From Acidobacteriaceae bacterium (lineage in GTDB: Bacteria; Acidobacteriota; Terriglobia; Terriglobales; Acidobacteriaceae): DNA of 64,000 nucleotides. Positions 15,114 to 64,000 of the stretch are shown here, piece after piece. The stretch lies in contig JASHNW010000100.1 in assembly GCA_030041435.1 (NCBI GenBank), positions 1-64,000 of the forward strand, in the 5' to 3' direction. The position numbers and the translations under genes are program-made. The notes under the pieces are model-generated. The model had not been told where the DNA came from. It did no database searches and saw only the letters and a list, made by a program, of their open reading frames with translations. Position 1 is the stretch's first letter, and every line of letters begins with the position of its first letter.

Positions 15114-15155
15114 CGCCCGGCGCCACCCCGTCCCGCAACCGAAGCAGGCCCTTTT

Positions 15156-47674: not shown

Positions 47675-48778
47675 TTAAATTCCCGACTGTTTGAACCGAT
47701 CCAGCCCTGCCCGCTGGGCATGTTCGGCAATTGCCGCATTGATGTCAAGAGCGAGCGCCAGCGCCGCCCTGCCATCCTCGCCGCTCACGCGCGGTTTCGA
47801 CCGCGTCCGCACACATTCCAAAAACGACTCGATCTCGAGGCGCAGCGGCTCGCCGGGCTCGACCCGAGGCTTCTCGATGCGCAGTCCGGGAAATCCCCCC
47901 GGCATGTTAGAAGATGAGCCCACCCTGTCCGCGACCGGCGTCGCGGACAAGGATGGGGCACCCCCGCCTGTACCAGAATCGGGCTTGGGTGGGGCGCCCG
48001 AGACGTCGATCACCAGAAGGTCCTGGCGGGCGTAGTCGATCGAGACATATTGATGCGGCTGAAAGAAGCGCAGCTTGCGGACGCGCTCGGTGCTGACGCG
48101 GCTGGCGGTGAAGTTGGCGACGCAGCCGGATTCGAATTCGACGCGAACGTTGGCGATGTCGACCTTCGGGGACAGAATCGGCAGGCCAACGGCATGGAGT
48201 GAGCGCACCGGCGAGCGAACGAGGGAGAGAACGATGTCGAGATCGTGGACCATCAGGTCGAGCACCACGTCGACGTCCAGCGAGCGGGGGCTGAAGACGC
48301 TGAGCCGATGCGCCTCGAAGAACATCGGGTGGTTCAGCACAGATTCGGTCGCGGTAACGGCCGGGTTGAACCGCTCCAGATGGCCGGTTTGCAGGATGCG
48401 CCCCTTTTGCGCCGCAAGCGAGAGGAGCTCCGTGGCTTCGGCCACGGTGGTGGCGATGGGCTTTTCGACGAGCACGTCGAGGCCGGCCGTGAGCAGCGCC
48501 TGAGCAACCTGGAAATGGCTGGAGGTGGGTGTGCAAACGGAGGCGGCGCCAAAGGAGACCTCGCCGCGTTCGCGAGCGGCCAGGCATTCAGCAACCGATG
48601 AGAAAACCGGGACGCCCCATTCGCCGGCGGCCGCGGCGCGCGCCCCATCCGGCTCGATAACAGCAGCCAGTCGCACCGCTGCGCCGTCGTTCTCGAGCGT
48701 GCGATAGACGCGGAGATGGTTACGGCCGAAAACCCCTGCGCCGCAGACCAGAATCCCGATTGGAGACGTGCTGGGCAA
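47675..48778 (-). CDS. Gfo/Idh/MocA-family dehydrogenase (cytosolic)
   Basis: A 367-aa NAD(P)-dependent enzyme without a signal peptide. ILVCGAGVFGRNH is the Rossmann motif, EKPIATTVAEA carries the EKP site lysine, and DLMVHDLDIVLSLV is family-typical. Residues about 258-295 (PPKPDSGTGGGAPS...) are an in-frame insertion caused by the palindromic repeat at 47926-47949. The start is uncertain: TTG 48778 fits the domain but has no ribosome site. Substrate unknown; similar enzymes often act on sugars or on UDP-sugar precursors. Confidence 0.82.
   Translation of the reverse strand: MPSTSPIGILVCGAGVFGRNHLRVYRTLENDGAAVRLAAVIEPDGARAAAAGEWGVPVFSSVAECLAARERGEVSFGAASVCTPTSSHFQVAQALLTAGLDVLVEKPIATTVAEATELLSLAAQKGRILQTGHLERFNPAVTATESVLNHPMFFEAHRLSVFSPRSLDVDVVLDLMVHDLDIVLSLVRSPVRSLHAVGLPILSPKVDIANVRVEFESGCVANFTASRVSTERVRKLRFFQPHQYVSIDYARQDLLVIDVSGAPPKPDSGTGGGAPSLSATPVADRVGSSSNMPGGFPGLRIEKPRVEPGEPLRLEIESFLECVRTRSKPRVSGEDGRAALALALDINAAIAEHAQRAGLDRFKQSGI
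47926..47949. repeat. Palindromic mini-repeat inside the dehydrogenase gene
   Basis: A perfect 10-bp hairpin (tgtccgcgac / gtcgcggaca, loop cggc) flanked by CCCACCC on the left and GGATGGGGCACCCC on the right. It looks like a dispersed palindromic element that inserted in frame and is translated into about 30 extra residues. Confidence 0.7.
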
Positions 48779-48795
48779 CGATTTTGTGCCGGCGC

Positions 48796-49014
48796 TTACG
48801 CCGGCTTTCCTTCCACAACGCGCAGGCAGCGCGCGTAGAGCTCCAGCAGCTGCGTCACCTGCTCCTCGGGTTTGGGAGCGCTGGCGGCCACAAAGCCGGT
48901 GGATGGGGTGCTGGCGCGTCCGACGCCGGCCGAGGCAGCCACAAACTTCAGAAGATCGAGCGCGATGTCCTCATTGCGCCGAGCGCCATTGCCTGAGGCG
49001 GGGACCTGATCCAT
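48796..49014 (-). CDS. Small protein of unknown function
   Basis: A 72-aa protein (MDQVPASGNGARRNEDIALD...) with a helical C-terminus (PEEQVTQLLELYARCLRVVE). The ATG at 49014 has a gagaggg ribosome site. It is 57 bases downstream of the S24-like regulator gene and in the same direction, so the two may be cotranscribed. No family recognised. Confidence 0.6.
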   Translation of the reverse strand: MDQVPASGNGARRNEDIALDLLKFVAASAGVGRASTPSTGFVAASAPKPEEQVTQLLELYARCLRVVEGKPA

Positions 49015-49071
49015 AAAAAACCCTCTCAGGGGGATGCTATCAAAGGGTCGCCCGCAACACACGGAGCCCGC

Positions 49072-49785
49072 TCACAGCTCGGCAATGCAGAAACACACAC
49101 GCCCCACCAGCAGGTCGGAGGGAGATTCCTGAGCGGCCAGCTCCAGCAGCTCGACCGGATATTCGACGGAGCGCGGCCGCAGGATGAGGCGGCTGGCTTC
49201 GAACGACACGTGGCGAAAAACCATCTGCGATCCGACGCGCACGCCGTACAGGTTGGGATGGGGGGGCTTCCACACGGCGAGCGAGTTGTAATGGCGGTCG
49301 ATGACCGCAATGGCGCCGATGCGCAGCAGAGGGTCCATCGAGAGGGCCTGCGCGGCTGTGACCCGTACGGCGACAAAGCGCTCCCAGCTGCGGCGGCTGA
49401 CGGCCCGGCGCGCCGGAAACCGGGCCAGCGTGCCGCCGGGCAGGTGGATGCTGTGCGCGACCGCCCGGTGGGAAACGACAGGCGCGGTCATGGCCACTGT
49501 CTGCGAAACGATGGGAACGATATCCATGGATTCTTTTTGATTTCCTTCCGGGGGAGGGAAATCGAAGCGGTCGGAGACGGCCAGGTCCTCGATGCTGAGG
49601 GCCTGCGCCATCAGGATACGATCCAGCGCCGGCATGCTGAGGCGCCGCCGCCGGTGCAGAAAATTCGAGATGTGCGCCTGAGCCAGGCCGGTTTGGCGAG
49701 CGAGCAGCGCTGTCGAGAGAACCCCAAGGTCGATGCGGCGCCAGGTCTCGAGGCGCAGGCGCTCGTGTAACTCGAGAAATTTCAT
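49072..49785 (-). CDS. XRE-type regulator with S24/LexA-like C-terminal domain
   Basis: A 237-aa protein. Residues 1-60 form a helix-turn-helix (TALLARQTGLAQAHISNFLHRRRRL). The C-terminal part has a peptidase S24-like block: ALSMDPLLRIGAIAVIDRHYNS, where the SMDP serine would be the nucleophile, then YGVRVGSQMVFRHV where the catalytic lysine would be expected but arginine/histidine are seen. So self-cleavage may be lost. It sits at the left side of the phage block and could be a repressor, or an ordinary chromosomal regulator. Confidence 0.75.
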   Translation of the reverse strand: MKFLELHERLRLETWRRIDLGVLSTALLARQTGLAQAHISNFLHRRRRLSMPALDRILMAQALSIEDLAVSDRFDFPPPEGNQKESMDIVPIVSQTVAMTAPVVSHRAVAHSIHLPGGTLARFPARRAVSRRSWERFVAVRVTAAQALSMDPLLRIGAIAVIDRHYNSLAVWKPPHPNLYGVRVGSQMVFRHVSFEASRLILRPRSVEYPVELLELAAQESPSDLLVGRVCFCIAEL

Positions 49786-50207
49786 CCGTGTGAAGTTTTC
49801 AACGAGCTATACACCCGTTACCTCAGCGTTTGCAGAATGAATCGCGATTTCGCGAATTCTTCAGGAACCGCAAGGCACATCGGTAATCAGGTGCGTTACG
49901 GCGCAGGAATCGCACTCGCGGCAATTGACCCTGCTCCTTCGCAGATTTAGTGTCGGACTACTTTCGCCAGGAAGACATACAACTTTGCGTGGAGATCGTG
50001 CGAGCCAGACGCCGGCTGCGCGCAAATGCCGAGTCCCCCTGGTCATTTTCAGGCCGAAGGATCGCTGACCATCTGCTCCTTTCCCAAATCGACAACAACC
50101 AAGGGCCGAGGCCGCGGAGGCAAGAAAAGCGGCGGAGCCTTTCCCTCCCCCGGCGGAGCCCGGAGCAATCGAACTCCCGGCGCCGCTTTCCCTCTGGAGA
50201 AGCCATC
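49786..50207. promoter_or_regulatory. Divergent region left of the zinc-ribbon gene
   Basis: This 422-base gap shows no convincing gene. The frame of the zinc-ribbon gene is open upstream to 49950, but without family-like sequence. It should hold promoters for the regulator (leftward) and the zinc-ribbon/sigma-like pair (rightward). Confidence 0.4.
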
Positions 50208-50405
50208 ATGTATTTCCGTATATTTCTTAAAGTTTGCGAAGGGTGCGGTATTCTCTGGTTCCGCACTCAGGACTGCCTTGATGTCTACTGCCCCGCGTGC
50301 GCGGTACGCATGCGAGCTCTTCCTCCGGGAAGACCGTCGCGCCGCTACGGACGCCGCAAGCGGCACGCCTGTTCCGGGCAAATCAACGGCGGAGGCGCCG
50401 CATGA
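50208..50405 (+). CDS. Small zinc-ribbon protein
   Basis: A 65-aa protein with two CxxC knuckles (CEGCG and CPAC) that could bind one zinc, and a basic tail. Ribosome site ggagaa. Its stop overlaps the ATG of the sigma-like gene (ATGA). Possibly a transcription-related partner of it. Confidence 0.6.
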   Translation: MYFRIFLKVCEGCGILWFRTQDCLDVYCPACAVRMRALPPGRPSRRYGRRKRHACSGQINGGGAA

Positions 50406-50884
50406 GCGCCGCCCTCGCCATGCCCTGCGTCCTTCCCGAGGCACAAGCGGTTGCCCAGCCGGATTTGCCGGTTTACCGGCCCAAACCCATCGACGGCCTT
50501 GCGTTTTATCGCAAGCATTCGACGGCTTTGCTGCAGCGTTACATGCGTGCCTCCATGGAGCTCGGCCGGACACCGTGCCTGCTGGGGAATTTGGTCTTCC
50601 GGGGACGCGTGTCCAGTTACCGCATGACGAGTTTTGAAGACATCGTCATTTTCGTGCTGGACGTGGAGAAATGTCTGAAGCGGCTGGACCGCAGTTCTCA
50701 GGAGGTTGTCGCCCACGTGGCGCTCGAGTGTTACACGGTCGAGGAGACGGCCGGAATTACCGGAGAAAGCGAGCGGTCTGCGGCAAGAATCTACGCGGAA
50801 GCGATGGATCGGCTGACACAGCTTTTTCTCGATTTTGGCCTCCTGGACCCAAATGTGGAAAATTTGTCAAGTGGTGAGGCCTGA
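50402..50884 (+). CDS. Sigma-region-4-like helix-turn-helix protein
   Basis: A 160-aa protein. Its C-terminal half (LDRSSQEVVAHVALECYTVEETAGITGESERSAARIYAEAMDRL) resembles sigma-70 region 4, with a helix-turn-helix at VEETAGITGESERSAARIY. Region 2 is not visible, so it is unlikely to be a full sigma factor. Together with the zinc-ribbon protein and the upstream regulator it may control the phage block, but that is inference from position. Confidence 0.65.
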   Translation: MSAALAMPCVLPEAQAVAQPDLPVYRPKPIDGLAFYRKHSTALLQRYMRASMELGRTPCLLGNLVFRGRVSSYRMTSFEDIVIFVLDVEKCLKRLDRSSQEVVAHVALECYTVEETAGITGESERSAARIYAEAMDRLTQLFLDFGLLDPNVENLSSGEA

Positions 50885-51025: not shown

Positions 51026-51104
51026 ATTGCTCCCGGCAGGCTCCTGGTCAGCCGCCGGTGACCGCATCCAGAGAATATCCAGGCCGAAAACGGGAATGAG
51101 GATT

Positions 51105-54100
51105 ATGCAGAACAAAAGCTGCGAAAAGCGGACTCGCGCGCTCGTGCGCGCAGGCCGGGCCGCGCTGGCCGTGTTGGCTGCGGTGACGGCCATTCTTCCC
51201 CTGCGCGCTGCGGCGCAAATCAACACCACCACCGTCCAGGGCACCGTGTATCGCGCCGACGGCACGCCTGCGAGCGGAACCATGATTGTGAGCTGGCCTG
51301 CCTTCACAACGCCGCAGAATCAGGCGGTGGCGGCGGGAAGCCTGAATACGGCGATCGGCGCCAACGGATTTGTCAGCGTGAACCTGATGCCGAATGCAGA
51401 AGCGCTGCCGGTGGGGACCTACTACACGGTCGTCTACCACCTGAGCGACGGAACCGTAAACAAGGAATACTGGGTAGTTCCGCAGACGGCGACCGCGGCC
51501 ATCGCAGCGGTGCGGGCGGAACTGGAACCCTCCACCGTCGCGGTCCAGCCGGTCTCCGCTGCTTATGTACAAAGCGCGATTACGGCGGCAGGCAGCAGCT
51601 ATCTCCCTCTCGCGGGCGGCACGCTGACCGGACCGCTGACGCTCAACAGCGACCCCACCACGCAGAACCAGGCGGCGACCAAGCATTATGCGGATCAACT
51701 GTCGGCGGCGGCGCTGCCGCTGGCGGATCTGGTTGCCGGCCAGGGCGACTCGCGCACCTCCGCAACGAATGCGGCCAGTGTGGCCATGACGCATTACCTT
51801 GCCGGGCACGTGTGCGCGGATGACTACCTCTGGAGCGACACGGCGCATGGCGGTACCGACATCGGAGCGGCGATCAATGCGGCGGTGCAGGCTTCCTCGC
51901 TGACCGTGCAGACGGAGATCGATCTGTGCACCATGGGGACCTACAGCGTCTTCACCCCCATCGTCATCGACCGGCCGGTCGCCTTCAACATGACCGGATC
52001 GCGCCTGGTCGCGCAGCCGTCGCTTTCTTCGGCGCCGATCGCCATCGGCAACGCCACGCTCACCGCCGGCAGCACCACGGTGACCGTGAGCGGAGGGCTC
52101 CCGGCGGGATTGGCTGCCGGCATGCGCGTGGGAGGCGTGGGGACCGAGGCCGCCAATTACATCGTCTGCGTTTATCCGACTGCGCCATGCACCGCGCCCA
52201 ACACCTTTCAAATGGCGTTGCCGGCCGAACTCGACGTGAGCGGGAACATGACCGTGGGCTCAACCGCGGTATCCGGACTGAACACCGTCCGCGGTCTCGC
52301 GGCTGGCCAGTACCTCGAATGGCAGGGAACGCCGGGAAACTATTCCGCGCCCGTGGCCATCGCTGCCATCAGCGCCTCCGGCGCAACCCAGAGCCTGACT
52401 CTGGCCTCCGCGCCGGCGACCGTGGGAAACAACCCCAGCACCCTCACCGTCGCTGCCGGCAGCCAGTGGACCGCAAACCTCACCGCGGTAAAAGTCACCT
52501 ATGTCATGAACTGGATCATGGCTCCTTACGCCTTGACAAACTCTGAAGGCCAGCAGGTGGGCGGCCTGATGCGCGGCGTGGAGATTACCGAATCCACATG
52601 GCCCTTTGGGGGTTCCCTGCCTGGCGTTGGCGGCATCCTGGTAGCGGGTTGGGACCGCCTGGACATCGAAGCGAACATCGACGGCATGGATGGCCCAGGC
52701 ATCACGTTCGGTGGAACCGGACTGACCGCCTACGGCTCCGACACCAGCAACAGCGAAGTACGCGAAGCCCACTACTGGGGGCTGCAGGTATGGGATTGCG
52801 GCGACGCCGCTACCCGCAGCGGGGAAATCGAGATCATGACGCCGCCGGGCTCGGTGGATGAAGATAACCAGCTCGGCTTCTTCGGCGGCATGGCGATTTT
52901 CCCCGCCGCCAATGGAGTCGTCGTCGGAAGCTATGTGCCCGGAGCGACGGCCGGAAACGGTCCGCGGCTGGTGTGGTTCATGGACAATTTCCAGCTGGAA
53001 GGCGGCAACCATTATCCGCCCGGCCAGAACATCCCCTCGCCTTTCGATTTGCTCTACATACAGAACGGCCACAACATCTGGTTTGTGGGCGGTGAAATCT
53101 CCAGCCCCGGCTACGGAAAATCTGCCGTCAAATGTCTTGGCTGCAATAAGACTTTCGTCGATGACAGCCTCGTCTCGGCAACCGGCAAACAAATTGCCTA
53201 TACGGTTTCTGCAACCGCCGGTTCGCCCACGCTCACCTATGTCAACGGCGGCGGCGGCTCTTTCGATGCCACCGGCAACTGGGATGGGGTGGGAGTCAGG
53301 CTGGTGGACGGCGCGTCCTGCACCTCGGGCTCCCCGTGTTATGCCTGGCTGGCTCCCGCCGCATCCGTCAATGCCACCGGCACGCAGTTAACCCTCACCG
53401 GCAACACGCCCACCGCCACCAGCGCCTCGGTGCAGATGACCATCGGCTGGGGCGGCATGGCGAACCTCGACATTGCCTGGCCGGGCGTCACCCAGTTTCA
53501 GGCGTGGGGCGACTCCTGGAACGACGGCGAAGCCAGCACCCAGGCCCTGCTGGGAGAGACCGGGGCCCCGCCGTATCCCGGCTATTTCGTCAGCTCGCTG
53601 CTGACCGCAGAGGACGGAAAAATCAGCGCCTCCGGGCTGCCCCTGAGCGCGGCTTCCCTGAGCGGGGCCAGAATCAACGGCGAGTTCACCGTGGACGGCG
53701 TGACCTACACCACCCTGAACGCCGCATGGAGCGCTGCGCTGGCCCAGGCAACCGCTACCGGACAGAACCAGACCGTGCGCCTCGGCCCGGGGACCTATCC
53801 CGTGACCGCGACCCTGACGGAGCCGGCGAATGGCGCCTGCGTCAGCCTGATCGGCTCTGCCGGCACCACGGTGACCGCGGACAGCACGCAGATTGCGACC
53901 ATGCTGACGGTCCCCGCTTCGCTCGGCGGCGATGTGCTGTTTCTCGGCAATGCCGCGCAGGGGCAGGGCTGCACGTTGAAGGACCTCGACATCCTCGCCG
54001 CCGGCAACGCGACGCACGGCTTCGAGCTGCAGTGGTTCCGCGGCGCGCTGATCGACAACGTCGCCGTGAACGACACCACCGCCGAGGGCATCCTGCTGGG

Positions 54101-55889
54101 CGAGGAGAACACCGCGTCCGGCCACCAGGCCAATGCCCTGCTGCGCAACGTCACGGTCAGCTATTCGAGCGGCGCATTTGCGCCCGCCAACCGCCCCGCC
54201 TGGGGCATTCACCTGCAAAAAACCGCGATGGACAGCCATCTGGACGACATCGTGGTGCGCAACGCGCTCACTGCGGCGGTCTACAACGAGGGAACCGGCA
54301 ACACCGGCTATCTCATCCACGGCTTCGGCTATCCCTATACCTGCACGACCGGGCCCTGCGCCAACAACACATCGTCGGGATCGGCAGCGAACGCGTCGTA
54401 CGCGACGAACTACGTCATCTACGACACCGGCGGCTCCGGCAGCGTGTGGACCGACACCTACGCGGACAGCCCAGCCGTAGCCGGCTTCTACATCGGCGCC
54501 AACGGGATCGCGATTCACGGCGGGCACATTCAGTGGCCCGACCTGACCAGCTTTCCGGCGGCCAATCTCGCCTATGTCGCATCCGGCGTGAGCAACAACC
54601 TGCTCATCGCCGATGTGGATTGCCTCGAGATGAACAGCGGCGTGAACTGGATCACCTATGCGGGGGCCTCGGGCAATCCGCCCACCTTCTCGAGCGTGCA
54701 CCATCTCACCGGCTGCGGCAATTACTATCAGGCGCTGGAGCCGGCCGAAGTCACCGGCTTCTCCAGCGGCGGGGCAAACATCAACGACCCCAGCGGCGCA
54801 GTGCCGCGCGTCTGGTCCACGCCCATCGCGGCGGCATCCAGTTACCCGGCTTACTCGGCGCAGCTGTACACCGGCTACCAGGGCGACGCGTTTCAGGCGC
54901 ACTTCTCCGGTGTCGCTCCGTTTTTCAATGTCACCTGGCAGGGGACGATCCGGTCGAGCGGCGGCATCGCCCTCGGCACCATCATCAATACCGGGTCCAC
55001 GCTCACCCTGACGGCGGCCAACAAGAATGTGATCGCCAACGCAGCCAGCGGTCCGCAGACCCTTACCCTGCCCAGCTGCTACACGCCGCTGCCGGACCAG
55101 GCATCGCCGGCGGGGCTGGAGTTCACCATCGTCAAATCGGACACATCGTCGAACACGGTGACTCTGCAAACCACCAGCTCGCAGCTCATCTACAGCCGGG
55201 GGACAGGGGCCGCGACGCTGGTGCTCTCCTCGCCCACGACGCAGACACTGGTCTGCGGACCGGACTACAACTGGTATGCTTCCGAATCCGGTTCCGGTGT
55301 GTCGACCTTCAACGGACGCACTGGCGCGGTCACACCGGCGTCCGGCGATTACACCTTCAGCCAGTTGAGCGGTCAGGCGACGAATGCGCAGCTGCCGTCG
55401 ACGCTGACCGCGCCCACCACAGGCAACGCAGCGACGGCCACGGCGCTGGCGGCGACGCCGTCGCAATGCGCCACGGGCTATTACGCCACCGGCATCGCGG
55501 CCGGCGGCGCCGCGAACTGCCTGCAGTCCTGGCACTTCACCTGGTACGGCTACTTCGGAGGAACCTTCGGCACATCCACGAACAATTCCCTGGGAGCGAT
55601 CTGGTCGCCGACCGCGGCCATTACCATGACGCGCCTGGATATTGCCGTGGGCACGGCGCCCGCCGGCTGCACGACGTATCCCGTGGTGGGGATTTACGAC
55701 AGCACCTCGGCTGCGTGGCTCAGGACGGTCACCCTCGCGTCGGGAACATACAGCTATCGCAACGCGGTCAGCGGCGTGTCGATCGCGGCCGCGCACAATC
55801 TGTCCATGGGCGTGCAGACGGCGGGCGCGGGCTGCACGACGAGCCCGGCCTCCGCGCAGCTGACGATGGAATACACGATGAACCAGTGA
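51105..55889 (+). CDS. Secreted beta-helix/tail-fibre-like protein with signal peptide
   Basis: A 1594-aa protein. The ATG at 51105 follows an aatgaggatt ribosome site. The N-terminus has a clear signal peptide (AGRAALAVLAAVTAILPLRAAAQ). After it comes a TLTGPLTLNSDPTTQNQAATKHYAD block like phage tail fibres, long stretches of right-handed beta-helix repeats (about residues 320-1150), and near the C-terminus FNGRTGAVTPASGDYTFSQL, another tail-fibre signature. A genuine virion fibre should not need a signal peptide, so this may be a secreted surface protein built from phage parts. Confidence 0.75.
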   Translation: MQNKSCEKRTRALVRAGRAALAVLAAVTAILPLRAAAQINTTTVQGTVYRADGTPASGTMIVSWPAFTTPQNQAVAAGSLNTAIGANGFVSVNLMPNAEALPVGTYYTVVYHLSDGTVNKEYWVVPQTATAAIAAVRAELEPSTVAVQPVSAAYVQSAITAAGSSYLPLAGGTLTGPLTLNSDPTTQNQAATKHYADQLSAAALPLADLVAGQGDSRTSATNAASVAMTHYLAGHVCADDYLWSDTAHGGTDIGAAINAAVQASSLTVQTEIDLCTMGTYSVFTPIVIDRPVAFNMTGSRLVAQPSLSSAPIAIGNATLTAGSTTVTVSGGLPAGLAAGMRVGGVGTEAANYIVCVYPTAPCTAPNTFQMALPAELDVSGNMTVGSTAVSGLNTVRGLAAGQYLEWQGTPGNYSAPVAIAAISASGATQSLTLASAPATVGNNPSTLTVAAGSQWTANLTAVKVTYVMNWIMAPYALTNSEGQQVGGLMRGVEITESTWPFGGSLPGVGGILVAGWDRLDIEANIDGMDGPGITFGGTGLTAYGSDTSNSEVREAHYWGLQVWDCGDAATRSGEIEIMTPPGSVDEDNQLGFFGGMAIFPAANGVVVGSYVPGATAGNGPRLVWFMDNFQLEGGNHYPPGQNIPSPFDLLYIQNGHNIWFVGGEISSPGYGKSAVKCLGCNKTFVDDSLVSATGKQIAYTVSATAGSPTLTYVNGGGGSFDATGNWDGVGVRLVDGASCTSGSPCYAWLAPAASVNATGTQLTLTGNTPTATSASVQMTIGWGGMANLDIAWPGVTQFQAWGDSWNDGEASTQALLGETGAPPYPGYFVSSLLTAEDGKISASGLPLSAASLSGARINGEFTVDGVTYTTLNAAWSAALAQATATGQNQTVRLGPGTYPVTATLTEPANGACVSLIGSAGTTVTADSTQIATMLTVPASLGGDVLFLGNAAQGQGCTLKDLDILAAGNATHGFELQWFRGALIDNVAVNDTTAEGILLGEENTASGHQANALLRNVTVSYSSGAFAPANRPAWGIHLQKTAMDSHLDDIVVRNALTAAVYNEGTGNTGYLIHGFGYPYTCTTGPCANNTSSGSAANASYATNYVIYDTGGSGSVWTDTYADSPAVAGFYIGANGIAIHGGHIQWPDLTSFPAANLAYVASGVSNNLLIADVDCLEMNSGVNWITYAGASGNPPTFSSVHHLTGCGNYYQALEPAEVTGFSSGGANINDPSGAVPRVWSTPIAAASSYPAYSAQLYTGYQGDAFQAHFSGVAPFFNVTWQGTIRSSGGIALGTIINTGSTLTLTAANKNVIANAASGPQTLTLPSCYTPLPDQASPAGLEFTIVKSDTSSNTVTLQTTSSQLIYSRGTGAATLVLSSPTTQTLVCGPDYNWYASESGSGVSTFNGRTGAVTPASGDYTFSQLSGQATNAQLPSTLTAPTTGNAATATALAATPSQCATGYYATGIAAGGAANCLQSWHFTWYGYFGGTFGTSTNNSLGAIWSPTAAITMTRLDIAVGTAPAGCTTYPVVGIYDSTSAAWLRTVTLASGTYSYRNAVSGVSIAAAHNLSMGVQTAGAGCTTSPASAQLTMEYTMNQ

Positions 55890-55897
55890 GCGAGGCC

Positions 55898-57397
55898 ATG
55901 AGTTGCGACCTCGGGAAAGGCACTCGGGACGACCTCGTCCGCATCGGCAAGGAGATCGACGATCCCGCCGGAAACGCTCTGGCCTGGACGGAGAAACTCC
56001 TGCACATCAGAAACCGGCTGGGGCAGCTTGTAGCCCTGGCCCCGAACAAGGCGCAAAGGAAATACGCCGACGACTCGCAGGGGAAGCAGAGAAACATCGT
56101 TCTGAAGGCGCGCCAGATGGGCATCACGACGTGGATCGCGGGGCAGTTCTTCCTGCGCACCATCACCCACCCCGGCACGGTAACCGTGCAGGTGGCGCAT
56201 ACGCAGGAGGCCGCTGAGCAGATCTTCCGCATCGTGCACCGTTTTCTGGCGAACCTGCCGGAAACGCTGCGCGATGGCGCGCTGAAGTCGGCACGGGTCA
56301 GCGCGCGGCGGCTCATCATTCCGGAGCTGGACAGCGAGTATCTGGTGGAGACGGCGGGCGATCGCAATGCCGGACGAGGGATGACGATCACCAACCTGCA
56401 CTGCACGGAGCTGGCGCGCTGGCCGGGCGATCCGGAGGAAACGCTGTACGGGCTGATGGCGACGCTGTCGCCCGCCGGCAGGCTGGCTATGGAGTCGACG
56501 CCGAACGGCGCGTGGGGCTGTTTCTGGAAGGAGTGGCAGAACGCGGAGAAGACCAACACGGTGCAGCATTTCTTTCCGTGGTGGATGGAAGATGCCTACC
56601 AGGGAGAGCCGGCCGCCGCGGAGACGCTGAACGAACGGGAACGCCTGCTGATGGAGAAACACGGCCTGAGCCTGGAGCAAATCGGCTACCGGCGACAGAT
56701 CCTGGAGAACTTCCGCAGGCTGGCGCGGCAGGAGTACGCCGAAGATTCCGACGAGTGCTTCTTCGCCTCCGGCTCCTGTTATTTCGACGCGGAGACCATC
56801 GACCGGCGGCTGCCCGAACTCGATGAACCATTCGAGAAGCGCAAGCGGGGCAACGTGCACATCTGGATGCCGCCGCAGGCGGAGAAGCAGTATCTGGTGG
56901 CCGTCGACCCGGCGGGCGGCGGAACGGCGGGCGACTATACGGCCATGCAGGTGGTTGAGATGGGGGAAGCCTGGCAGTGCGCGGAGCTGCAGGCGCACCT
57001 GTCGCCTTCGGAAGCCGCGCAGGAGGCGGCAAAGCTGGCTCGGGAGTACAACGGCGCGGTGGTGGCGGTGGAGCGCAACAGTATGGGGCTGACGGTGCTG
57101 ACCTGCCTCGAAAACAATCAGCACTATAAGAACCTCTGGCAGGACGAGGACAGGATGGACGGCTTTCGCACCACGACATCGTCGCGCGACCGGATTCTGA
57201 GCCGCCTCTACGCGTTTCTGGACGAGGAATCGATAAAGCTCCGGAGCGAGCGGCTGCTGCGGGAGTGCCGCAGCTTTGTGCGTCGCGAGAACGGGCGCGT
57301 GGAGGCCAGGGCCGGCGAGCATGACGATCTGGTGCTGGCCATGGCCATCGCCCTCGAGGCGCGGGCTTGGCAGCTGGGGCGCAGGCGGGTGGCGTAG
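55898..57397 (+). CDS. terL: Phage terminase large subunit
   Basis: A 499-aa packaging motor. The ATPase Walker A is KARQMGITT (residues 70-78), with a Walker B candidate in TNLHCTELARW (about 165-175). The nuclease domain has the first aspartate at D337 (VAVDPAGGG) and the last at EHDDLVLA (about 474-479). The start could instead be a GTG at 55886 that overlaps the previous stop. No small subunit gene is adjacent. The kinase gene follows 24 bases later. Confidence 0.93.
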   Translation: MSCDLGKGTRDDLVRIGKEIDDPAGNALAWTEKLLHIRNRLGQLVALAPNKAQRKYADDSQGKQRNIVLKARQMGITTWIAGQFFLRTITHPGTVTVQVAHTQEAAEQIFRIVHRFLANLPETLRDGALKSARVSARRLIIPELDSEYLVETAGDRNAGRGMTITNLHCTELARWPGDPEETLYGLMATLSPAGRLAMESTPNGAWGCFWKEWQNAEKTNTVQHFFPWWMEDAYQGEPAAAETLNERERLLMEKHGLSLEQIGYRRQILENFRRLARQEYAEDSDECFFASGSCYFDAETIDRRLPELDEPFEKRKRGNVHIWMPPQAEKQYLVAVDPAGGGTAGDYTAMQVVEMGEAWQCAELQAHLSPSEAAQEAAKLAREYNGAVVAVERNSMGLTVLTCLENNQHYKNLWQDEDRMDGFRTTTSSRDRILSRLYAFLDEESIKLRSERLLRECRSFVRRENGRVEARAGEHDDLVLAMAIALEARAWQLGRRRVA

Positions 57398-57420: not shown

Positions 57421-58293
57421 GTGGCGGTTCAGGCGGTCCAGCAGATCAGAAAAATGCGCGGCGGAGCGCAGAGCCATCTCATGCTGGGCGCCGACGGCAA
57501 CGCCTGGGTGGTGAAGTTCCAGAACAACCCCCAGCATCTGCGCGTGCTGCCCAACGAGCTGCTGGGAACGCGGCTGGGGGCGCTGATCGGGCTGACCGTG
57601 CCGCAGTGCGACGTGATCGAGGTGACGCCGTGGCTCATCGAGCGCACCGCGGAGCTGGAGATGGACCTGGGCCAGCGCCGGGAGCGCTGCCGCGCCGGGC
57701 TGCAGTTCGGGTCGCAGCTGGTGGGCGGCCTGATGCCGGGGCACGTGGCCGATTACCTGCCCGAGGAGCAGCTGCTGGAGGTGCGCAACCTGCGCGAATT
57801 CTCGGGAGCCCTGGCGCTCGATAAGTGGACCTGCAACGCCAACGGGCGGCAGGCTCTGTTTTATCGAAAGGGCAGGGAGAAGCGGTACGGCGCGACCTTC
57901 ATCGACCAGGGATTCTGCTTCAATGCCGGAGACTGGCGCTTCGTCGACGCGCCGCTGCGGGGCGTCTACGCGCGCAACACGGTGTATCGCGAAGTGACCG
58001 GCTGGGACAGCTTCGAGCCGTGGCTGAGCCGCATCGAGCGAGTCGAAGCGGAGAAGGTGTGGGCCATCGCCGAGACGATTCCGCCGGAGTGGTACGAAGG
58101 AGACGTGGCCGTGCTGGAGCAGCTGGTGGAGCGGCTGATGGAACGCCGCTCGCGAGTGCGGGAGTGGATCACCGCGTTTCGGGAGTCGTCGCGGCAGCCG
58201 TTTCCAAACTGGAACCGCGCCGCCGCAAAAGCTGCAACGGGCCTTTTCGAGGCGCCTCCGTGGGACGATAGTATGCCTGGAAGGCTTATGTAA
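57421..58293 (+). CDS. HipA-like kinase
   Basis: A 290-aa protein kinase-like protein starting at GTG 57421 with a ggaggg site. Candidate kinase residues: K32 in VVKF, E46 in NELLG, D134 in LDKW, N139 in NANG and D162 in IDQG; the last three match the catalytic aspartate, asparagine and metal aspartate of HipA-fold kinases. The usual HipA N-terminal domain and HipB partner are absent. HipA-type kinases phosphorylate tRNA-synthetases or other proteins and arrest growth; here the neighbour is a DUF3037 protein, a known companion. Confidence 0.8.
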   Translation: MAVQAVQQIRKMRGGAQSHLMLGADGNAWVVKFQNNPQHLRVLPNELLGTRLGALIGLTVPQCDVIEVTPWLIERTAELEMDLGQRRERCRAGLQFGSQLVGGLMPGHVADYLPEEQLLEVRNLREFSGALALDKWTCNANGRQALFYRKGREKRYGATFIDQGFCFNAGDWRFVDAPLRGVYARNTVYREVTGWDSFEPWLSRIERVEAEKVWAIAETIPPEWYEGDVAVLEQLVERLMERRSRVREWITAFRESSRQPFPNWNRAAAKAATGLFEAPPWDDSMPGRLM

Positions 58294-58314
58294 CGGAAGG
58301 ATGACGAAGCCAGC

Positions 58315-59151
58315 GTGACGGAGCATCGACAATGCGAGTTCTTCCTGGTGCGCTACGTGCCGGACCCGGTGAAGAACGAATTCGTGAACATCGGGGTGGG
58401 GCTGCGCGCGGCCGAGCAGCCCGGCGGCACACAGCTCCGCTTCACGAAAGACTGGGGGCGGGTGCGCTGCGTCGATCCCGACGCCGACATCGAGATGCTG
58501 GAGGCGATGGAGACGGAGATGCGGCGGCGGCTGGCCGAGCCCGGCGCGGATCACCCGCCCCTGATGAATACCATGGAGGATTCATTCTCGCATCTGTTAC
58601 AAATTACGGAGCCCAAAGCCTGCCTGGCCGAAAACATGGCCGCGCAGATGGATCAGCTGATGCGCCTCTACGTGGAGCCGCGCAAAGAGAAGGCGCGCCA
58701 AACGCTGAGCGGGCGCCAGGCCCTGCTGCGCAGCATGAGGACGCAGTTCGAACACGCGCGGGTGTGGGACCTGATGCGCCGGCGGATCGCCGCCGCTGCG
58801 TACACGCGCCCCGGCGATCCTCTGAAGATCGACTGCGGCTACCGCCCCAACGGAACGGTGCGGATGTTCCATGCGGTTTCGCTGCACACCGACGTGGAGC
58901 TGGCCAAGGTGCTGGCCTTCAGCGCGCCCGCTCTGCGCTCCGGCGTGGAACGGCTGGAGAAAGCCGAGCTGGAGCTGACGGCCATTGTGGAGCCGCTCCG
59001 CGACCCCAGGGGCGAAGTGAGCACCGACGAGGAGCGCATGGAGCAGTACCGCTTCGGGGTCGAAACCATGGAGGCGCAGCAGATTCGCGTGCTCACGGTC
59101 AGCGACCTGGAGCGCGTGGCGGAAACAGCGCGCCGCGAGTTGCGGGTGTAA
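58315..59151 (+). CDS. DUF3037-family protein
   Basis: A 278-aa protein starting at GTG 58315, 21 bases after the kinase. The N-terminus (HRQCEFFLVRYVPDPVKNEFVNIGVGL) is the DUF3037 domain; the rest is helix-rich with no catalytic motif I can see. In other bacteria DUF3037 genes lie next to HipA-like kinase genes, so it is likely a partner or modulator (perhaps antitoxin-like). Role otherwise unknown. Confidence 0.85.
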   Translation: MTEHRQCEFFLVRYVPDPVKNEFVNIGVGLRAAEQPGGTQLRFTKDWGRVRCVDPDADIEMLEAMETEMRRRLAEPGADHPPLMNTMEDSFSHLLQITEPKACLAENMAAQMDQLMRLYVEPRKEKARQTLSGRQALLRSMRTQFEHARVWDLMRRRIAAAAYTRPGDPLKIDCGYRPNGTVRMFHAVSLHTDVELAKVLAFSAPALRSGVERLEKAELELTAIVEPLRDPRGEVSTDEERMEQYRFGVETMEAQQIRVLTVSDLERVAETARRELRV

Positions 59152-59155
59152 GAGG

Positions 59156-59243
59156 AGCTGGGAGCTGGGAGCCGGTAGCTGGGAGCTAAGAGTTAAAAGC
59201 TACCAGCTACCAGCTACCAGCTACCGGCTCCCAGCTCCCAGCT
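59156..59243. repeat. Inverted AGCTGGGAGC/AGCTACC repeat
   Basis: The 25 bases at 59156-59180 are the exact reverse complement of 59219-59243; the middle holds AGCTACC units. This array lies directly after the DUF3037 gene. Family of words not shared with the genes around it. Confidence 0.9.
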
Positions 59244-59260
59244 AGCGGCTAACAGCGCAG

Positions 59261-59287
59261 GGGCATGGCCAAATGCCATGCCCTTTT
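59261..59287 (+). terminator. Rho-independent terminator before the portal gene
   Basis: Stem gggcatggc / gccatgccc (9 bp, loop caaat) followed by TTTTCATTT. It ends the terminase-kinase-DUF3037 transcript and separates it from the portal gene. Confidence 0.88.
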
Positions 59288-59320: not shown

Positions 59321-60595
59321 GTGAACATCAAAGAGCATTGGAAGCAGGCGCTGGCGCTGCTGGGGGCGGGGCGCAAAGAGCAGACGGCACAGCGAAGGAC
59401 CGTGGCGCTGCCGGCGATTCTGTCGCCGTACGCGTTCCCGGCCCGGGCGCTGCCCAAGCCCACCCCGGCCAATCTGCGCAAGTTTGCGGAGACGCCGGTG
59501 GTGCGCCGCGCCATCAACCTCATCAAGGACCGCGTGGCCGCCATGGACTGGCAGGTGCGCCTGAAGCGCGATCACGATGCGGATAAGGTGGCCTTCGCGG
59601 CCAAGCGCGCGCGCATCCTGCGCCGCTCGCTGGAATTTCCCAACCCGTCGGACTCGTTCCGCACCCTTATCGAGCAGGCCATCGAGGACGCCCTGGTGGG
59701 CGGCTTCGGCGCCATCGAGATGGAGCTGACCGGCGACGCGGCGCGGCCCTTCGAGCTGTGGCCGGTGGACGGCGCGACCATCCGCATCGACCCGAAGTGG
59801 GATGGCAGCCCGGACGCCATACGCTTTGCCCAGGCCACCGGCCTGGCCGGCTCGGACTCCCTCGTCCCGCTCGCGGACAACCAGCTGATCTACGTGCGCA
59901 TGAATCCGCGCAGCCACACCCCCTTCGGCCTGGGGCCGCTGGAAGTCGCCTTCGACACCGTGAACGCCTTCCTGAGCGCGCACCATTTCGCGGGCAAGCT
60001 GGCCAGCAACGCGGTGGTGCAGTACGCGCTGTGGCTGAACGAGACCACGCCGGCGCAGCACGAGCGGCTCATCCGCTGGTGGCAGGACGAGATCGAGGGC
60101 ACCGGCCGCGTGCCGCTGCTGAGCACGGAGCAGAAACCCGAAGTGCTGCGCTTTGCCGCAGGCACCGACGCCGACCTGCGCCTCACCTGGCAGGAATTTC
60201 TCATCCGCATGGTGGCCAATGCATTCTCGCTGCCGCCCATGCTGCTGGGCCTCGAGCAGGATGTGAACCGCTCCACCGCCGGGGAGCTGCGCGACGAAGC
60301 TTTCCACTCGGCCATTGTGCCCCTGGCGCGGCTGATCGCGGAGCACCTGACGCGCGACCTCTTCGCCAAGCGCCTTGGCTGGCCGGAGTTCGAGTTCGTC
60401 TTCAACGATCTCGACGCGACCGACGAGATGGAGGAGGTCGAGATGCAGACCGCGCTGCTGGCCGCCGGCGTGCTCACGGTAAACGAAGTGCGCGCCATGC
60501 GCGGGTTGGCGCCGCTGCCGGCGGAGACCCTCGCAACCGAGAAAAAGGAGGACAACGACACCATCACGCTGACCAACCAGGAAACCGAAGCATGA
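59321..60595 (+). CDS. Phage portal protein (HK97 type)
   Basis: A 424-aa protein with the portal family pattern (RRAINLIKDRVAAMDWQVRLK, FPNPSDSFRTLIEQAIEDALVGGFGAIEM, PPMLLGLEQDVNRSTAGELRDEAF). It forms the dodecameric ring through which DNA enters the capsid. The GTG at 59321 has an aaggag site. It overlaps the next gene start. Confidence 0.92.
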   Translation: MNIKEHWKQALALLGAGRKEQTAQRRTVALPAILSPYAFPARALPKPTPANLRKFAETPVVRRAINLIKDRVAAMDWQVRLKRDHDADKVAFAAKRARILRRSLEFPNPSDSFRTLIEQAIEDALVGGFGAIEMELTGDAARPFELWPVDGATIRIDPKWDGSPDAIRFAQATGLAGSDSLVPLADNQLIYVRMNPRSHTPFGLGPLEVAFDTVNAFLSAHHFAGKLASNAVVQYALWLNETTPAQHERLIRWWQDEIEGTGRVPLLSTEQKPEVLRFAAGTDADLRLTWQEFLIRMVANAFSLPPMLLGLEQDVNRSTAGELRDEAFHSAIVPLARLIAEHLTRDLFAKRLGWPEFEFVFNDLDATDEMEEVEMQTALLAAGVLTVNEVRAMRGLAPLPAETLATEKKEDNDTITLTNQETEA

Positions 60596-60606: not shown

Positions 60607-61269
60607 ATGAAACTGGAAGCCATGGCAGTCATGCTGCCGGAAGTGGCGGACCATCCCAATCGCGCGCCCTTTACCGGCGTGCTGACGCTGGTGGACGAGC
60701 CGAGCACCAAGCCGCCGTCGGGAGCGCGCGGGCATCGCGTGGTGCTGACCCGGCGGGCCGCGCTCGTCGCGCTGCCCTCCCTGCTGGGGATGGCGGTGGA
60801 CTACGCGCCCTCGTGGGATGGCCACGATGCGCGGCGCAAGTGCGGCATCATCACCCAGGCCGACGTCGAGGGCGCGCGCCTGCGCGTTGCCGGCTATCTC
60901 TACGCGAAAGATTTTCCCGAGGTAGAGCGGCAGATGCGGCAATGCGTGCCCGGCTCGATGGGCATGAGCTGGGAGCTGGCCGACGCCCACGTGGAAGACA
61001 TGCGCGCGGAGATCTGGACGCTGACGCGCGCCACCTTCACCGGCGCGGCCATCCTGCTGCGCGACAAGGCGGCCTACAGGAATACGTCGTTCGAGCTGGC
61101 GCCCACGCGCTGCCGCACGATGGCTGCCTGCACCGCCTCTGCCAGCCACACCCACAGAAATTTCCGGCGAGCCGCCGATGCGGCCGGCCGGACAACCGAC
61201 AGAAGAAAGGAACAGACATGGAAAGCCAGACAGGCGAATTCCAGGCAGGCGAGCCGCTCGGCTCGCTGA
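60607..61269 (+). CDS. Prohead-protease-like protein
   Basis: A protein of 220 aa from ATG 60607 (acaggagagc site), or 225 aa from ATG 60592. The pattern is S78-like: DYAPSWDGHDARRK (possible catalytic His), ARLRVAGYLYAKDFPE, PGSMGMSWELADAHVED (possible catalytic Ser) and WTLTRATFTGAAIL. It would trim the scaffold during capsid maturation. The 3' end overlaps the coiled-coil gene by 52 bases in another frame. The family call is moderate. Confidence 0.6.
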   Translation: MKLEAMAVMLPEVADHPNRAPFTGVLTLVDEPSTKPPSGARGHRVVLTRRAALVALPSLLGMAVDYAPSWDGHDARRKCGIITQADVEGARLRVAGYLYAKDFPEVERQMRQCVPGSMGMSWELADAHVEDMRAEIWTLTRATFTGAAILLRDKAAYRNTSFELAPTRCRTMAACTASASHTHRNFRRAADAAGRTTDRRKEQTWKARQANSRQASRSAR

Positions 61270-61673
61270 GCCAGAGCATGGAGCGCATGGCGACGAGGCT
61301 GGAAGCCGCGGCCACGCTCTTCGAGCGCACCGTGGCCATGCTGGAGGAGCGCGAAGGCGAAGTGCGGAAGATGGTGGCTGCCGTCGAGACCGGCCGCGAA
61401 GCCGAGCTCGAAAGAAAGCTCGAGGCCGCGGAGCAGCAGATCGCGGAGCTGCGCGCGCAGATCGAAGCCAACACCGCAACCGGCGCAGAAGCCCAGGTGA
61501 GGTCGGCGCGCCGGACGGTGCCGGCCTCCACCGCGCAGTTCCTCGCCAAGCAGGGCATCAGCACGCTCGAGCAGGTGGAGGCGGGCACGCTGGATGCGGC
61601 GCTGAACGGGCTCAGCCTCGAGCAGCGCATCGCGGTGAAGGCGCAGCTGCTGCGCGCCGGCGTGGTCGGCTGA
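61218..61673 (+). CDS. Coiled-coil protein, likely capsid scaffold
   Basis: A 151-aa protein, mostly coiled coil (MATRLEAAATLFERTVAMLEEREGEVRKMVAAVE...). The ATG at 61218 has an aaagga site and lies inside the 3' end of the protease-like gene. Its position before the capsid gene fits a scaffolding protein. Confidence 0.65.
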   Translation: MESQTGEFQAGEPLGSLSQSMERMATRLEAAATLFERTVAMLEEREGEVRKMVAAVETGREAELERKLEAAEQQIAELRAQIEANTATGAEAQVRSARRTVPASTAQFLAKQGISTLEQVEAGTLDAALNGLSLEQRIAVKAQLLRAGVVG

Positions 61674-61830: not shown

Positions 61831-62799
61831 ATGACAGCCAATTTCCTCGACATTCACGCCGCAGCCGACTACATCGGGCCCGGCGCGATTGAAGTTCCCC
61901 TTTACCAGACCGAGATCCTCGACATCGTGCGCCGCCGCAACCTCTTCGGGCAGCGCATCAGGCAGGTCCCGGCCACCGGGCATCCGTCGCGCTACTTCGA
62001 GCAGACGGCGATTCCCAACCCTTCCACGGCCGGCTTCGTCGACCCGCGCAACATCGTCGCGCCGGTTGTGTCGCCCACCCGCGTCGAGCGCAGCGTGCCG
62101 CTCAAGGCCATCGTCGCGCAGCTGAACTACAACCTTTTCGACATGGAGCTGGGCTCGCAGCAGAAACAGTTTGCTTATCTGCAGGCGAAGGACCTGGTGG
62201 ACACCATCGAAGGCGTGATGCTCACCCACGATGTCGCGCTGTGGAACGGCAATGACACCTCGCTGAGCACGCCGGCCACCATGCAGTACTTCGGCGCAGC
62301 CGGACAGATCGCCGCGGGCGGCAACACCACCACCATCGGCACCACCGCCTGCATCACCGACGGGCTCAAGTCGACCATCGCGCAGATGGTGGCCAACACC
62401 AGCTACGCCGTGCGGCCGACCGCCATCTACGCCAACCCGGTGCTGCTCGATCTGATCGACCGCGAGATGAAGGCCGAGTTCAACGTGGTCCTGAACACGA
62501 AGGAGATCGCCGCCGGATTCACGGTGAAGACCCTCACCACGCAGGCCGGCGAGCTGCCGCTGATTCCGGACTGGTCGCTCGCGTACACCGGCACGCCGGG
62601 CAGCGGCAATGCCGTTTTGCCGGCATACATCGTCACCGAAGACCTGATCGAGTACCACTGGCTCAGCGATCCCAACCCGCGCGTCTTCCAGCTCGGCGTT
62701 CCCGGGTCTCTGGCCTCGCAGTATGTGGTCGTGAAGTTCGGCGCGCCGGTCGTCAAGGGCGCGAACTACGCCCATTACCAGGTGCTCGTCGACCGGTAG
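61831..62799 (+). CDS. Phage major capsid protein
   Basis: A 322-aa protein. The N-terminus lacks the extended delta domain of HK97 precursors, in line with a separate scaffold gene. The pattern (IEVPLYQTEILDIVRRRNLFGQRI, YFEQTAIPNP, IYANPVLLDLIDREMKAEF, VTEDLIEYHWLSDPNPRVFQLG) is typical of HK97-fold capsid proteins. Ribosome site aaagga. Confidence 0.87.
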   Translation: MTANFLDIHAAADYIGPGAIEVPLYQTEILDIVRRRNLFGQRIRQVPATGHPSRYFEQTAIPNPSTAGFVDPRNIVAPVVSPTRVERSVPLKAIVAQLNYNLFDMELGSQQKQFAYLQAKDLVDTIEGVMLTHDVALWNGNDTSLSTPATMQYFGAAGQIAAGGNTTTIGTTACITDGLKSTIAQMVANTSYAVRPTAIYANPVLLDLIDREMKAEFNVVLNTKEIAAGFTVKTLTTQAGELPLIPDWSLAYTGTPGSGNAVLPAYIVTEDLIEYHWLSDPNPRVFQLGVPGSLASQYVVVKFGAPVVKGANYAHYQVLVDR

Positions 62800-63007: not shown

Positions 63008-63634
63008 ATGGCTTGTTATCTGCAGCCCAGCCAATACCAGACGTATGGGCTCGATCCCAGCGTCACCGGCGACTGGATCACGGCCGCTTCGTCGATCATC
63101 GACACGCACTGCCGGCGCATCAGTCTCAACCCCACGCAGTACACGGAGCGGCTGCGCCTGGTGGAAGGATCGCAGACCGCGCGGCTGAGCTATCTGCCGC
63201 TCGTGCCCATCGCTCCGGCCACGCTGCCGTTTGTGTCCATCCAGGCGCGCTACGCCAAACCGCGGCGCGGGCAAACCGCATACCCCATCCAGCAGGAAGT
63301 GCTGTGGGCCTTCTCGCTGCCCGGCGCGTGGACCACCGTCGATCCCACCACCGTGGATTTTGTAGCGGACACCGGTGAGCTCGTCTTCCCGCTGAACATT
63401 CTCGGCCTGCCCTACAACGAGGTCGAAGTGACCTACACAGCCGGGCTGGCCACGCTGCCCGACGCCGTACTGTGCGCGTGCGCGCAGATTGTGAAGAACG
63501 CCCAGGCCACGCCCGGCCTCAACGTGAAGTCGTCGAAGGTGGACACGCTGCAGATGCAGTATTTTTCCGGCGCGCTGCTCGACGCCACGGTGCAGTCGCT
63601 GCTGAAACCGTGGGTTGCGGCGAGGATGGGCTGA
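63008..63634 (+). CDS. Phage head-tail connector (gp6-like)
   Basis: A 208-aa protein with the connector pattern (YLQPSQYQTYGLDPSVTGDWITAASSIIDTHCRR, ARYAKPRRGQ, NEVEVTYTAGLATLPDAVLCACAQIV). It joins portal and tail. The next gene begins two bases after its stop. Confidence 0.78.
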   Translation: MACYLQPSQYQTYGLDPSVTGDWITAASSIIDTHCRRISLNPTQYTERLRLVEGSQTARLSYLPLVPIAPATLPFVSIQARYAKPRRGQTAYPIQQEVLWAFSLPGAWTTVDPTTVDFVADTGELVFPLNILGLPYNEVEVTYTAGLATLPDAVLCACAQIVKNAQATPGLNVKSSKVDTLQMQYFSGALLDATVQSLLKPWVAARMG

Positions 63635-63636
63635 CC

Positions 63637-64000
63637 ATGGCCGACCTGAGTACACAGAATTGTTGCGCCATCGGCCAGCGCGTGGCCACCGCCCTGCTCC
63701 GCACCGGCGGCGGGACCACCGCCTGCCTGCAGATGCCGCCGTCAACGGGCGATTCGAGCAATGCCGGCCAGCTCGGCCTCGATGCTCCGGGCTTCCTCTC
63801 TTTGCCCCTTGCACCGGTCGTCTTTCGCAAGGCGCGCGTCGCGATGCAGGATGGACAACTGCCCAAATACGAGCTGCTGATCTCCGCCGACGCGGTCGCC
63901 GCACAGGTGACCGGGCAGAACCTCAGCTCCGCGCAGGCGCTGTTTTCCATGGCCAGCGGCGTGGTCGTCGCCGGCAAGCTCTTCCTGATCGAAGCGATTT
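63637..64000 (+). CDS. Phage structural protein, truncated by window edge
   Basis: The frame from ATG 63637 stays open to the last base (121 codons visible: MADLSTQNCCAIGQRVATAL...). Its position after the connector and the sequence KARVAMQDGQLPKYELLISADAVAAQVTGQ suggest a head-tail completion or tail protein. The right end lies outside the window. Confidence 0.6.
   Translation, partial: MADLSTQNCCAIGQRVATALLRTGGGTTACLQMPPSTGDSSNAGQLGLDAPGFLSLPLAPVVFRKARVAMQDGQLPKYELLISADAVAAQVTGQNLSSAQALFSMASGVVVAGKLFLIEAI

Follow-up and report, generated by a model that had tools for sequence, protein, structure and literature searches.

Our analysis of a 64,000-nucleotide stretch of Acidobacteriaceae DNA (hereafter the window) suggests that two adjacent genes, encoding a HipA-like kinase and a DUF3037 protein, form a pair of HipAD type, toxin/antitoxin-like and probably directed against phages, that lies in a vertically inherited, phage-derived locus resembling a gene transfer agent (GTA), and that is able to outlive this locus; we put the probability of this reading at roughly 0.6. 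Extrapolating from published relatives, the compact HipA-fold kinase would stop growth, the DUF3037 partner would hold the kinase off, and the most likely trigger for its release would be infection by a phage or some other stress. The pair is built into a particle locus that has a terminase, a portal, a gene in the capsid position, an adaptor, and CI-like and weakly matched sigma-like regulators. This locus, which has no recognised integrase, would be not a prophage but a GTA-like element that has been domesticated, and its particle is presumably still made.

The kinase gene (57421..58293, plus strand; 290 aa) begins with GTG and is open throughout in the window. The ORF finder gave a longer ORF starting at a TTG at 57367; we consider this start less likely, since nine of 11 viral loci have a TTG or GTG codon at the position of the GTG at 57421. 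The protein matches Pfam HipA_2 over residues 10-86 only, scoring 33.3 bits (E 4e-8) where the curated threshold is 27. Among 138 aligned kinase rows, a number that includes duplicates (the kinase-tree count is 133 rows, 126 of them different), K32 is kept in 137, E46 in 135 (two D, one gap), and D134, N139 and D162 in all 138; two loci, L021 and L032, were removed from a kinase alignment (A3) because the matched stretch overran a stop codon. We take K32, D134, N139 and D162 to have catalytic roles. The predicted model of the kinase (pLDDT 74.9 overall, below 50 for residues 164-184) has its best structural matches among the CtkA, PI4K-II, Fam20, HipA and HipT kinases: CtkA with Z 13.2, rmsd 4.3 and 210 aligned residues, PI4K II alpha with Z 13.1, HipA with Z 10.6, rmsd 4.0 and 199 aligned, and HipT with Z 10.4, rmsd 4.2 and 202 aligned. 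Foldseek alone gave E values no better than 1.5e-3. The first-pass annotation had described a HipA-fold kinase with plausible catalytic residues and had proposed superposition on HipA as a check; the family match, the conserved residues and the fold alignments all bear this description out, and the superposition yields a kinase fold. The dN/dS ratio of the kinase is 0.05-0.21 in six of seven pairs, with the remaining pair saturated and synonymous sites partly saturated; values well under 1 argue against the element being a relic in genomes that have all of it.

The partner gene (58315..59151, plus strand; 278 aa) is likewise open and matches Pfam DUF3037 with E 2e-20, as the earlier reading of the sequence had proposed. 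Pfam scans of the partner returned no helix-turn-helix (HTH) family and, at E 1, no DUF1829. The second half of its predicted model aligns mostly with PD-(D/E)XK proteins at a borderline level, for example with BstEII (Z 8.5, rmsd 3.9, 128 aligned); the PD-(D/E)XK label of several of these structural matches is our own assumption. We considered and rejected the idea that the DUF3037 protein is an active nuclease: given that a Z of 8 is borderline and that inspection by eye of the DUF3037 alignment (A1) revealed no conserved catalytic lysine, we do not claim nuclease activity. PHROGs places the two proteins of the pair in phrog_3162 and phrog_5137, both of unknown function. Between the DUF3037 gene and the portal gene lies a large inverted repeat (59156..59243), an 88-base hairpin made of seven-base AGCTGGG units and their complement (AGCTGGG/AGCTACC), much larger than the next hairpin. 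That next hairpin, on the plus strand, is terminator-like: a terminator had been reported to close the pair at 59261-59287, and a terminator-like hairpin is indeed present, at 59259-59285, in a region where 11 such sites in 12.3 kb compare with 8.9 +/- 3.0 in shuffled sequence, such that a single site is weak alone. The fold energy of the 156 bases containing both hairpins has a z of -9.5 against shuffles.

By its sequence the pair is a HipAD/PDC-M66-type module. PADLOC, which lists PDC-M66 as a candidate defence system, matched the two adjacent genes of the window to PDC-M66A (3.9e-7, 27.5 bits) and PDC-M66B (3.2e-9, 34.7 bits), modest scores for models with no curated cut-off shown, and matched all eight proteins of four stand-alone pairs to PDC-M66 as well. 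Pairs of a HipA-like kinase and a DUF3037 protein have been reported as anti-phage in the accessible portions of two papers (PMC12548924, PMC13092281): in DS-6/HipAD, changing a predicted kinase residue led to loss of defence (PMC13092281), and in Retron-Sda1, deletion of the HipA kinase abolished defence and deletion of the DUF3037 gene was toxic (PMC12548924). The window pair resembles PDC-M66/DS-6 in having two genes, in matching both PADLOC models and in its conserved kinase residues, but differs in sitting within a largely vertically inherited phage particle locus. DS-6B, according to the available text, has a DUF1829 domain (PMC13092281), unlike the window partner; since the Retron-Sda1 partner is described by DUF3037 (PMC12548924), DUF1829 may not be a defining part. 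The Retron-Sda1 pair has the same two domains but, as far as that text describes it, adjoins a retron rather than phage genes (PMC12548924). The HipA-HipB and HipT-HipS toxin-antitoxin systems share the kinase fold; however, Pfam finds neither the HipA N-terminal domain in the window kinase nor an HTH in its partner. A canonical HipAB was rejected, since the partner is a DUF3037 protein and Pfam found no HTH partner. Given that the relatives act in defence or growth arrest, this is the likeliest use of the pair, and the suggestion of a growth-control or defence role gains from the PDC-M66A/B matches, from tests of the same domain pair elsewhere as described in the available text (PMC12548924, PMC13092281), and from the alignment with CtkA, HipA and HipT.

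The pair was described as lying between the large terminase and the portal, all in one direction, with gaps of 24 and 21 bases. The order and the 21-base gap between kinase and DUF3037 genes hold, but 23 bases, not 24, separate the kinase from the end of the terminase ORF at 57397. The large terminase (55898..57397, plus strand; 499 aa) matches Terminase_6C with E 8.7e-8, and the portal (59321..60595, plus strand; 424 aa) matches Phage_portal with E 1.1e-53; PHROGs agrees on both. All further genes downstream are also on the plus strand. A conserved gene following the portal (60607..61269, start codon chosen by eye) is in the head-protease position and is so named by position only, having no Pfam match and a weak PHROG match to 'portal protein' (E 0.003). 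It is followed by a coiled-coil, scaffold-like gene with a weak PHROG match only (61218..61673), a gene in the major-capsid position, assigned by position only and with no family match (61831..62799), a head-tail adaptor recognised by PHROGs (63008..63634), and a conserved 146 aa gene that runs past the end of the window (63637..63999). The capsid-position gene is the best conserved of the element, with 73-95% identity in seven neighbourhoods. Upstream of the terminase, also on the plus strand, are a long protein that is fibre-like by position only, with no family match and an uncertain true start (51027..55889), a sigma-70 region-4-like regulator with a weak match below the Pfam cut-off (50297..50881), and a conserved small ORF with no family match (49950..50402). 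Two features on the minus strand complete the left side: a Cro/CI-type HTH regulator (49075..49785; HTH_26, 23.5 bits, cut-off 22) and, identified by neighbourhood comparison and family scan, a left neighbour in which a Gfo/Idh/MocA oxidoreductase is accompanied by an 88 aa ORF (47678..49062). No integrase or replication family was found by Pfam or PHROGs among the scanned element genes, many of which match no family, and in one genome (G006) the element spans ~19 kb that, by coordinates, has no room for another large gene. We found no promoter-like site ahead of the pair in the window; together with the 23-base gap behind the terminase, this means that expression of the pair would be tied to that of the particle genes. 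ARAGORN called a tRNA-Pro (cgg) at 59758-59843 on the minus strand, antisense within the portal gene, which is probably a false positive.

The chromosomal site of the element was compared using 60-kb stretches around it in six genomes and a further stretch of 40 kb, with 54 regions in all. The element sits between the oxidoreductase and genes that Pfam identifies as PurE-PurK and/or 2-oxoacid acyltransferase, lipoyl ligase/LipB-type and Lpd-type. The left anchor was found in all seven particle-bearing regions that reach it (as the small ORF only in G085), and the right-hand anchors are the same in 38 of the 54 regions; eight regions are cut short, and eight are long enough but lack the anchor at the expected place. 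In one genome (G126) the acyltransferase is ~250 kb away from the element. Distances for the genes of the element follow those for rpoB: across 44 genomes, the Mantel r is 0.78 for the kinase, 0.77 for DUF3037, 0.82 for the portal and 0.78 for the capsid-position gene, and tree-distance r spans 0.67-0.84 for six genes that also include the terminase and the gene after the portal. Corresponding values are 0.84 for the adaptor (43 genomes) and 0.85 for the gene labelled E4 (40 genomes), and the largest r among 999 permutations was 0.15-0.26. The tree comparison excluded genomes G103 and G082, whose kinase is broken or truncated. Between one and three strongly supported splits that conflict with rpoB occur in every one of the six fully sampled gene trees; with the eight of 54 regions that lack the right anchor, these leave room for some transfer or rearrangement. 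In a midpoint-rooted rpoB tree of 60 genomes, the two clades that the deepest split separates both include genomes with the element. On these comparisons and on its copy number, the particle locus is inherited mostly vertically, mostly in single copy and mostly at one chromosomal site.

The distribution of the element points in the same direction. In the window's genus, where all candidates were scored, 12 of 12 genomes have the portal and 11 have the main kinase, the twelfth genome being 81% complete. A survey of 150 genomes of the family returned a portal match in 90, strong in 88 (weak matches in G064 and G143 were excluded), with a strong portal missing in 62; a kinase match was found in 109, with none in 41, so that kinases away from a portal are common. 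The kinase lies within 4.5 kb of the strong portal in 80 of the 88 genomes (one kinase is frameshifted, one truncated and two cut by contig ends). In six others the contig breaks off at the portal, and two have no adjacent kinase (G043, and G019, where it is on another contig), such that the kinase is beside the portal in 80 of the 82 genomes whose contigs permit the check. The portal has a single match in 82 of the 90 genomes and two in eight, from the best 12 candidates per genome; six of these eight represent complementary pieces, one (G084) has overlapping matches and one (G153) a weak second match. A search of 399 genomes of the class, in which the best four candidates per genome were scored, returned matches in at least 91, with strong ones in Acidobacteriaceae plus three genomes from a second family (f7). 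In two of these three, the order terminase-kinase-DUF3037-portal and that of the genes after it are as in the window's family; in the third, kinase and DUF3037 genes are accompanied by a portal split over two frames, and no terminase was found beside them. This near-fixed slot, shared with a second family, suggests that the pair has been kept in place since before the Acidobacteriaceae diversified. A search by gene order returned only genomes of the same family among the matches listed.

Some elements depart from the usual arrangement. In one f7 locus (L327), E3 and E4, which are adjacent in G006, are separated by an additional gene of 420 aa (14635-15897); by eye, this gene looks like a short tape-measure gene. 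Three genomes of one genus (G044, G107 and G138) lack the capsid-position gene, the adaptor and their neighbours at the usual place, and in a rearranged element (L135) these genes lie upstream of the terminase. At another locus (L031, 3876-5556), two DUF3037 matches follow one kinase, the first covering residues 1-138 only (tblastn).

Relatives of the kinase are encoded in 436 stretches of the genome collection. Among the best 80 of these 436, 57 have the full gene order, 12 a partial order (eight of them at contig ends) and 11 neither terminase nor portal, and all but two are acidobacterial by record title, one of the two being Rhodanobacteraceae. A terminase and/or portal gene thus adjoins the kinase in 69 of these best 80 loci, contrary to the possibility that the pair occurs only in ordinary chromosomal contexts. 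In viral contigs, the kinase as query detected 11 loci, every one with the order terminase-kinase-DUF3037-portal; with the portal as query there were 21 loci, many of them on contigs also found by the kinase, and 18 of the 21 have the pair. In the other three (L025, L026 and L029) the pair is absent and the terminase directly adjoins the portal; L026 was removed from the portal alignment (A2) because its matched stretch overran a stop codon. An alignment-based second kinase scan gave 23 loci, 22 of them on contigs already found; the new one (L169), whose kinase has 48% identity, has no terminase, DUF3037 or portal match. Neither kinase nor DUF3037 was found in any of 35 loci with portals of <=42% identity (L038-L073 minus L046; several end at contig edges), suggesting that the pair marks one lineage. 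A tblastn search of the phages collection with both proteins gave no match at E 0.01, and a single-sequence scan of viral contigs returned no DUF3037 relatives; here the pair was located via the kinase and the portal.

These data bear on the earlier proposal that the pair is cargo of a prophage. Under this proposal an ordinary, active temperate prophage would carry the pair for superinfection exclusion, as might be expected from its terminase, portal, adaptor and CI-like regulator, and from the fact that IMG/VR classes contigs with this gene order as viral. Temperate prophages are characterised by sporadic distribution and varying sites; here the distribution is broad and the site mostly one, with eight of 54 regions lacking the usual right anchor. 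The phage genes track rpoB and are found throughout the window's genus, the pair is present almost everywhere in the element, and no integrase or replication family was recognised, though many of the scanned genes match nothing. HK97-type capsids (PF05065), used as a control, are far more scattered, occurring in 30 of the 150 family genomes. Distribution, chromosomal site and gene trees led us to reject prophage cargo: the pair is unlikely to be a random passenger of a prophage, and an active prophage is a highly improbable explanation. The IMG/VR contigs that have the pair may be free phages or pieces of chromosome. None of ten such records includes the 2-oxoacid gene, although the records may be trimmed fragments, and one of 55.8 kb (G269) has both halves of the element with at least 20 kb that do not match it.

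Vertical inheritance of particle genes is a trait of GTAs, and the correlations with rpoB reveal it here. We propose that the locus may be a GTA, a domesticated particle of another kind or a relic in slow decay. GTAs are virus-derived, vertically inherited viriforms with terminase and portal genes (PMC9953437), as the locus described here seems to be; the available text of that paper places GTA genes at several separate loci, and here the particle genes form one. The GTA hosts tabulated there are alphaproteobacteria and spirochaetes (PMC9953437), and our literature search, in the text accessible to it, found no description of a GTA in Acidobacteria or Acidobacteriaceae. Eichorst et al. (2018; PMC5900883) reported 35 putative prophages across 19 of 24 acidobacterial genomes, which are likewise phage regions in this phylum, but the available portion of that paper has no account of a single inherited element or of the kinase pair. 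More tentatively, and at less than even odds, the locus could be an undescribed GTA-like viriform of Acidobacteriaceae, and of at least three f7 genomes, with a built-in HipAD pair linking defence or growth arrest to particle production. The focus thereby shifts away from a single prophage and towards an element that is widespread in a family of soil bacteria. Should these Acidobacteriota make the particles, they would have an inherited DNA-transfer or particle system.

The pair also occurs without the particle. At least four genera have it at the same site with no particle genes (G137 and G156 from one genus, G068 and G120 from another, G203, and G060), and in three further loci (L138, L143 and L148) it lies beside the left anchor, again without particle genes. 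Conversely, eight genomes (G195, G190, G105, G181, G039, G079, G092 and G059) have other remnants of the element, with the pair not seen in the stretch. One genome (G040) retains the kinase and has no DUF3037 match. Four (G055, G124, G115 and G026) have the acyltransferase only, and G070, a 3.6 kb contig, has a fibre fragment in addition. We conclude that the pair can outlive the particle and can also vanish with it. That it occurs where particle genes are absent speaks for an independent unit with a use of its own. The active site is complete in all 18 stand-alone kinase rows, which include two duplicates and one element split over two contigs (L145). In the kinase tree, from which L090, L093, L145 and G103 were omitted (duplicates of G genomes, a split locus and a broken gene), stand-alone kinases appear in several places among particle-linked ones, requiring at least ten changes, five of them forced by starred branches.

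Two further explanations can be weighed against these patterns. The kinase, co-transcribed with the terminase, could control the particle programme by arresting the producing cell or by phosphorylating a particle or host protein, with DUF3037 setting the timing. The near-fixed slot between terminase and portal in two families, the 23-base spacing in the window and the conserved active site are consistent with such a role, which we nonetheless consider unlikely, since the pair is found by itself in four or more genera, is missing or broken where particle genes stay (G043; G103, where the kinase is frameshifted; three of 21 viral loci), and has relatives that are stand-alone defence systems in the available text (PMC12548924). 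Alternatively, a pair that is hard to lose could have stabilised the element in the chromosome as an addiction module, with single pairs being relics left after deletion of the surrounding particle genes. Sites where particle genes are missing on both sides of the pair fit this idea, as does the toxicity of DUF3037 loss in a relative, as far as that report describes it (PMC12548924). However, the pair was not seen in the eight particle-less genomes with other remnants, and the intact active sites of stand-alone kinases are as expected under continued use; we therefore regard addiction as quite improbable, although it is compatible with defence. If the pair is a HipAD-type defence module, as we favour, the genomes that have pair and particle, particle only, pair only or neither provide a natural series suited to testing its role. 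One genus that lacks the particle seems to have gained extra copies of the stand-alone kinase, with nine kinase matches in G142 and seven in G115, some of them fragments.
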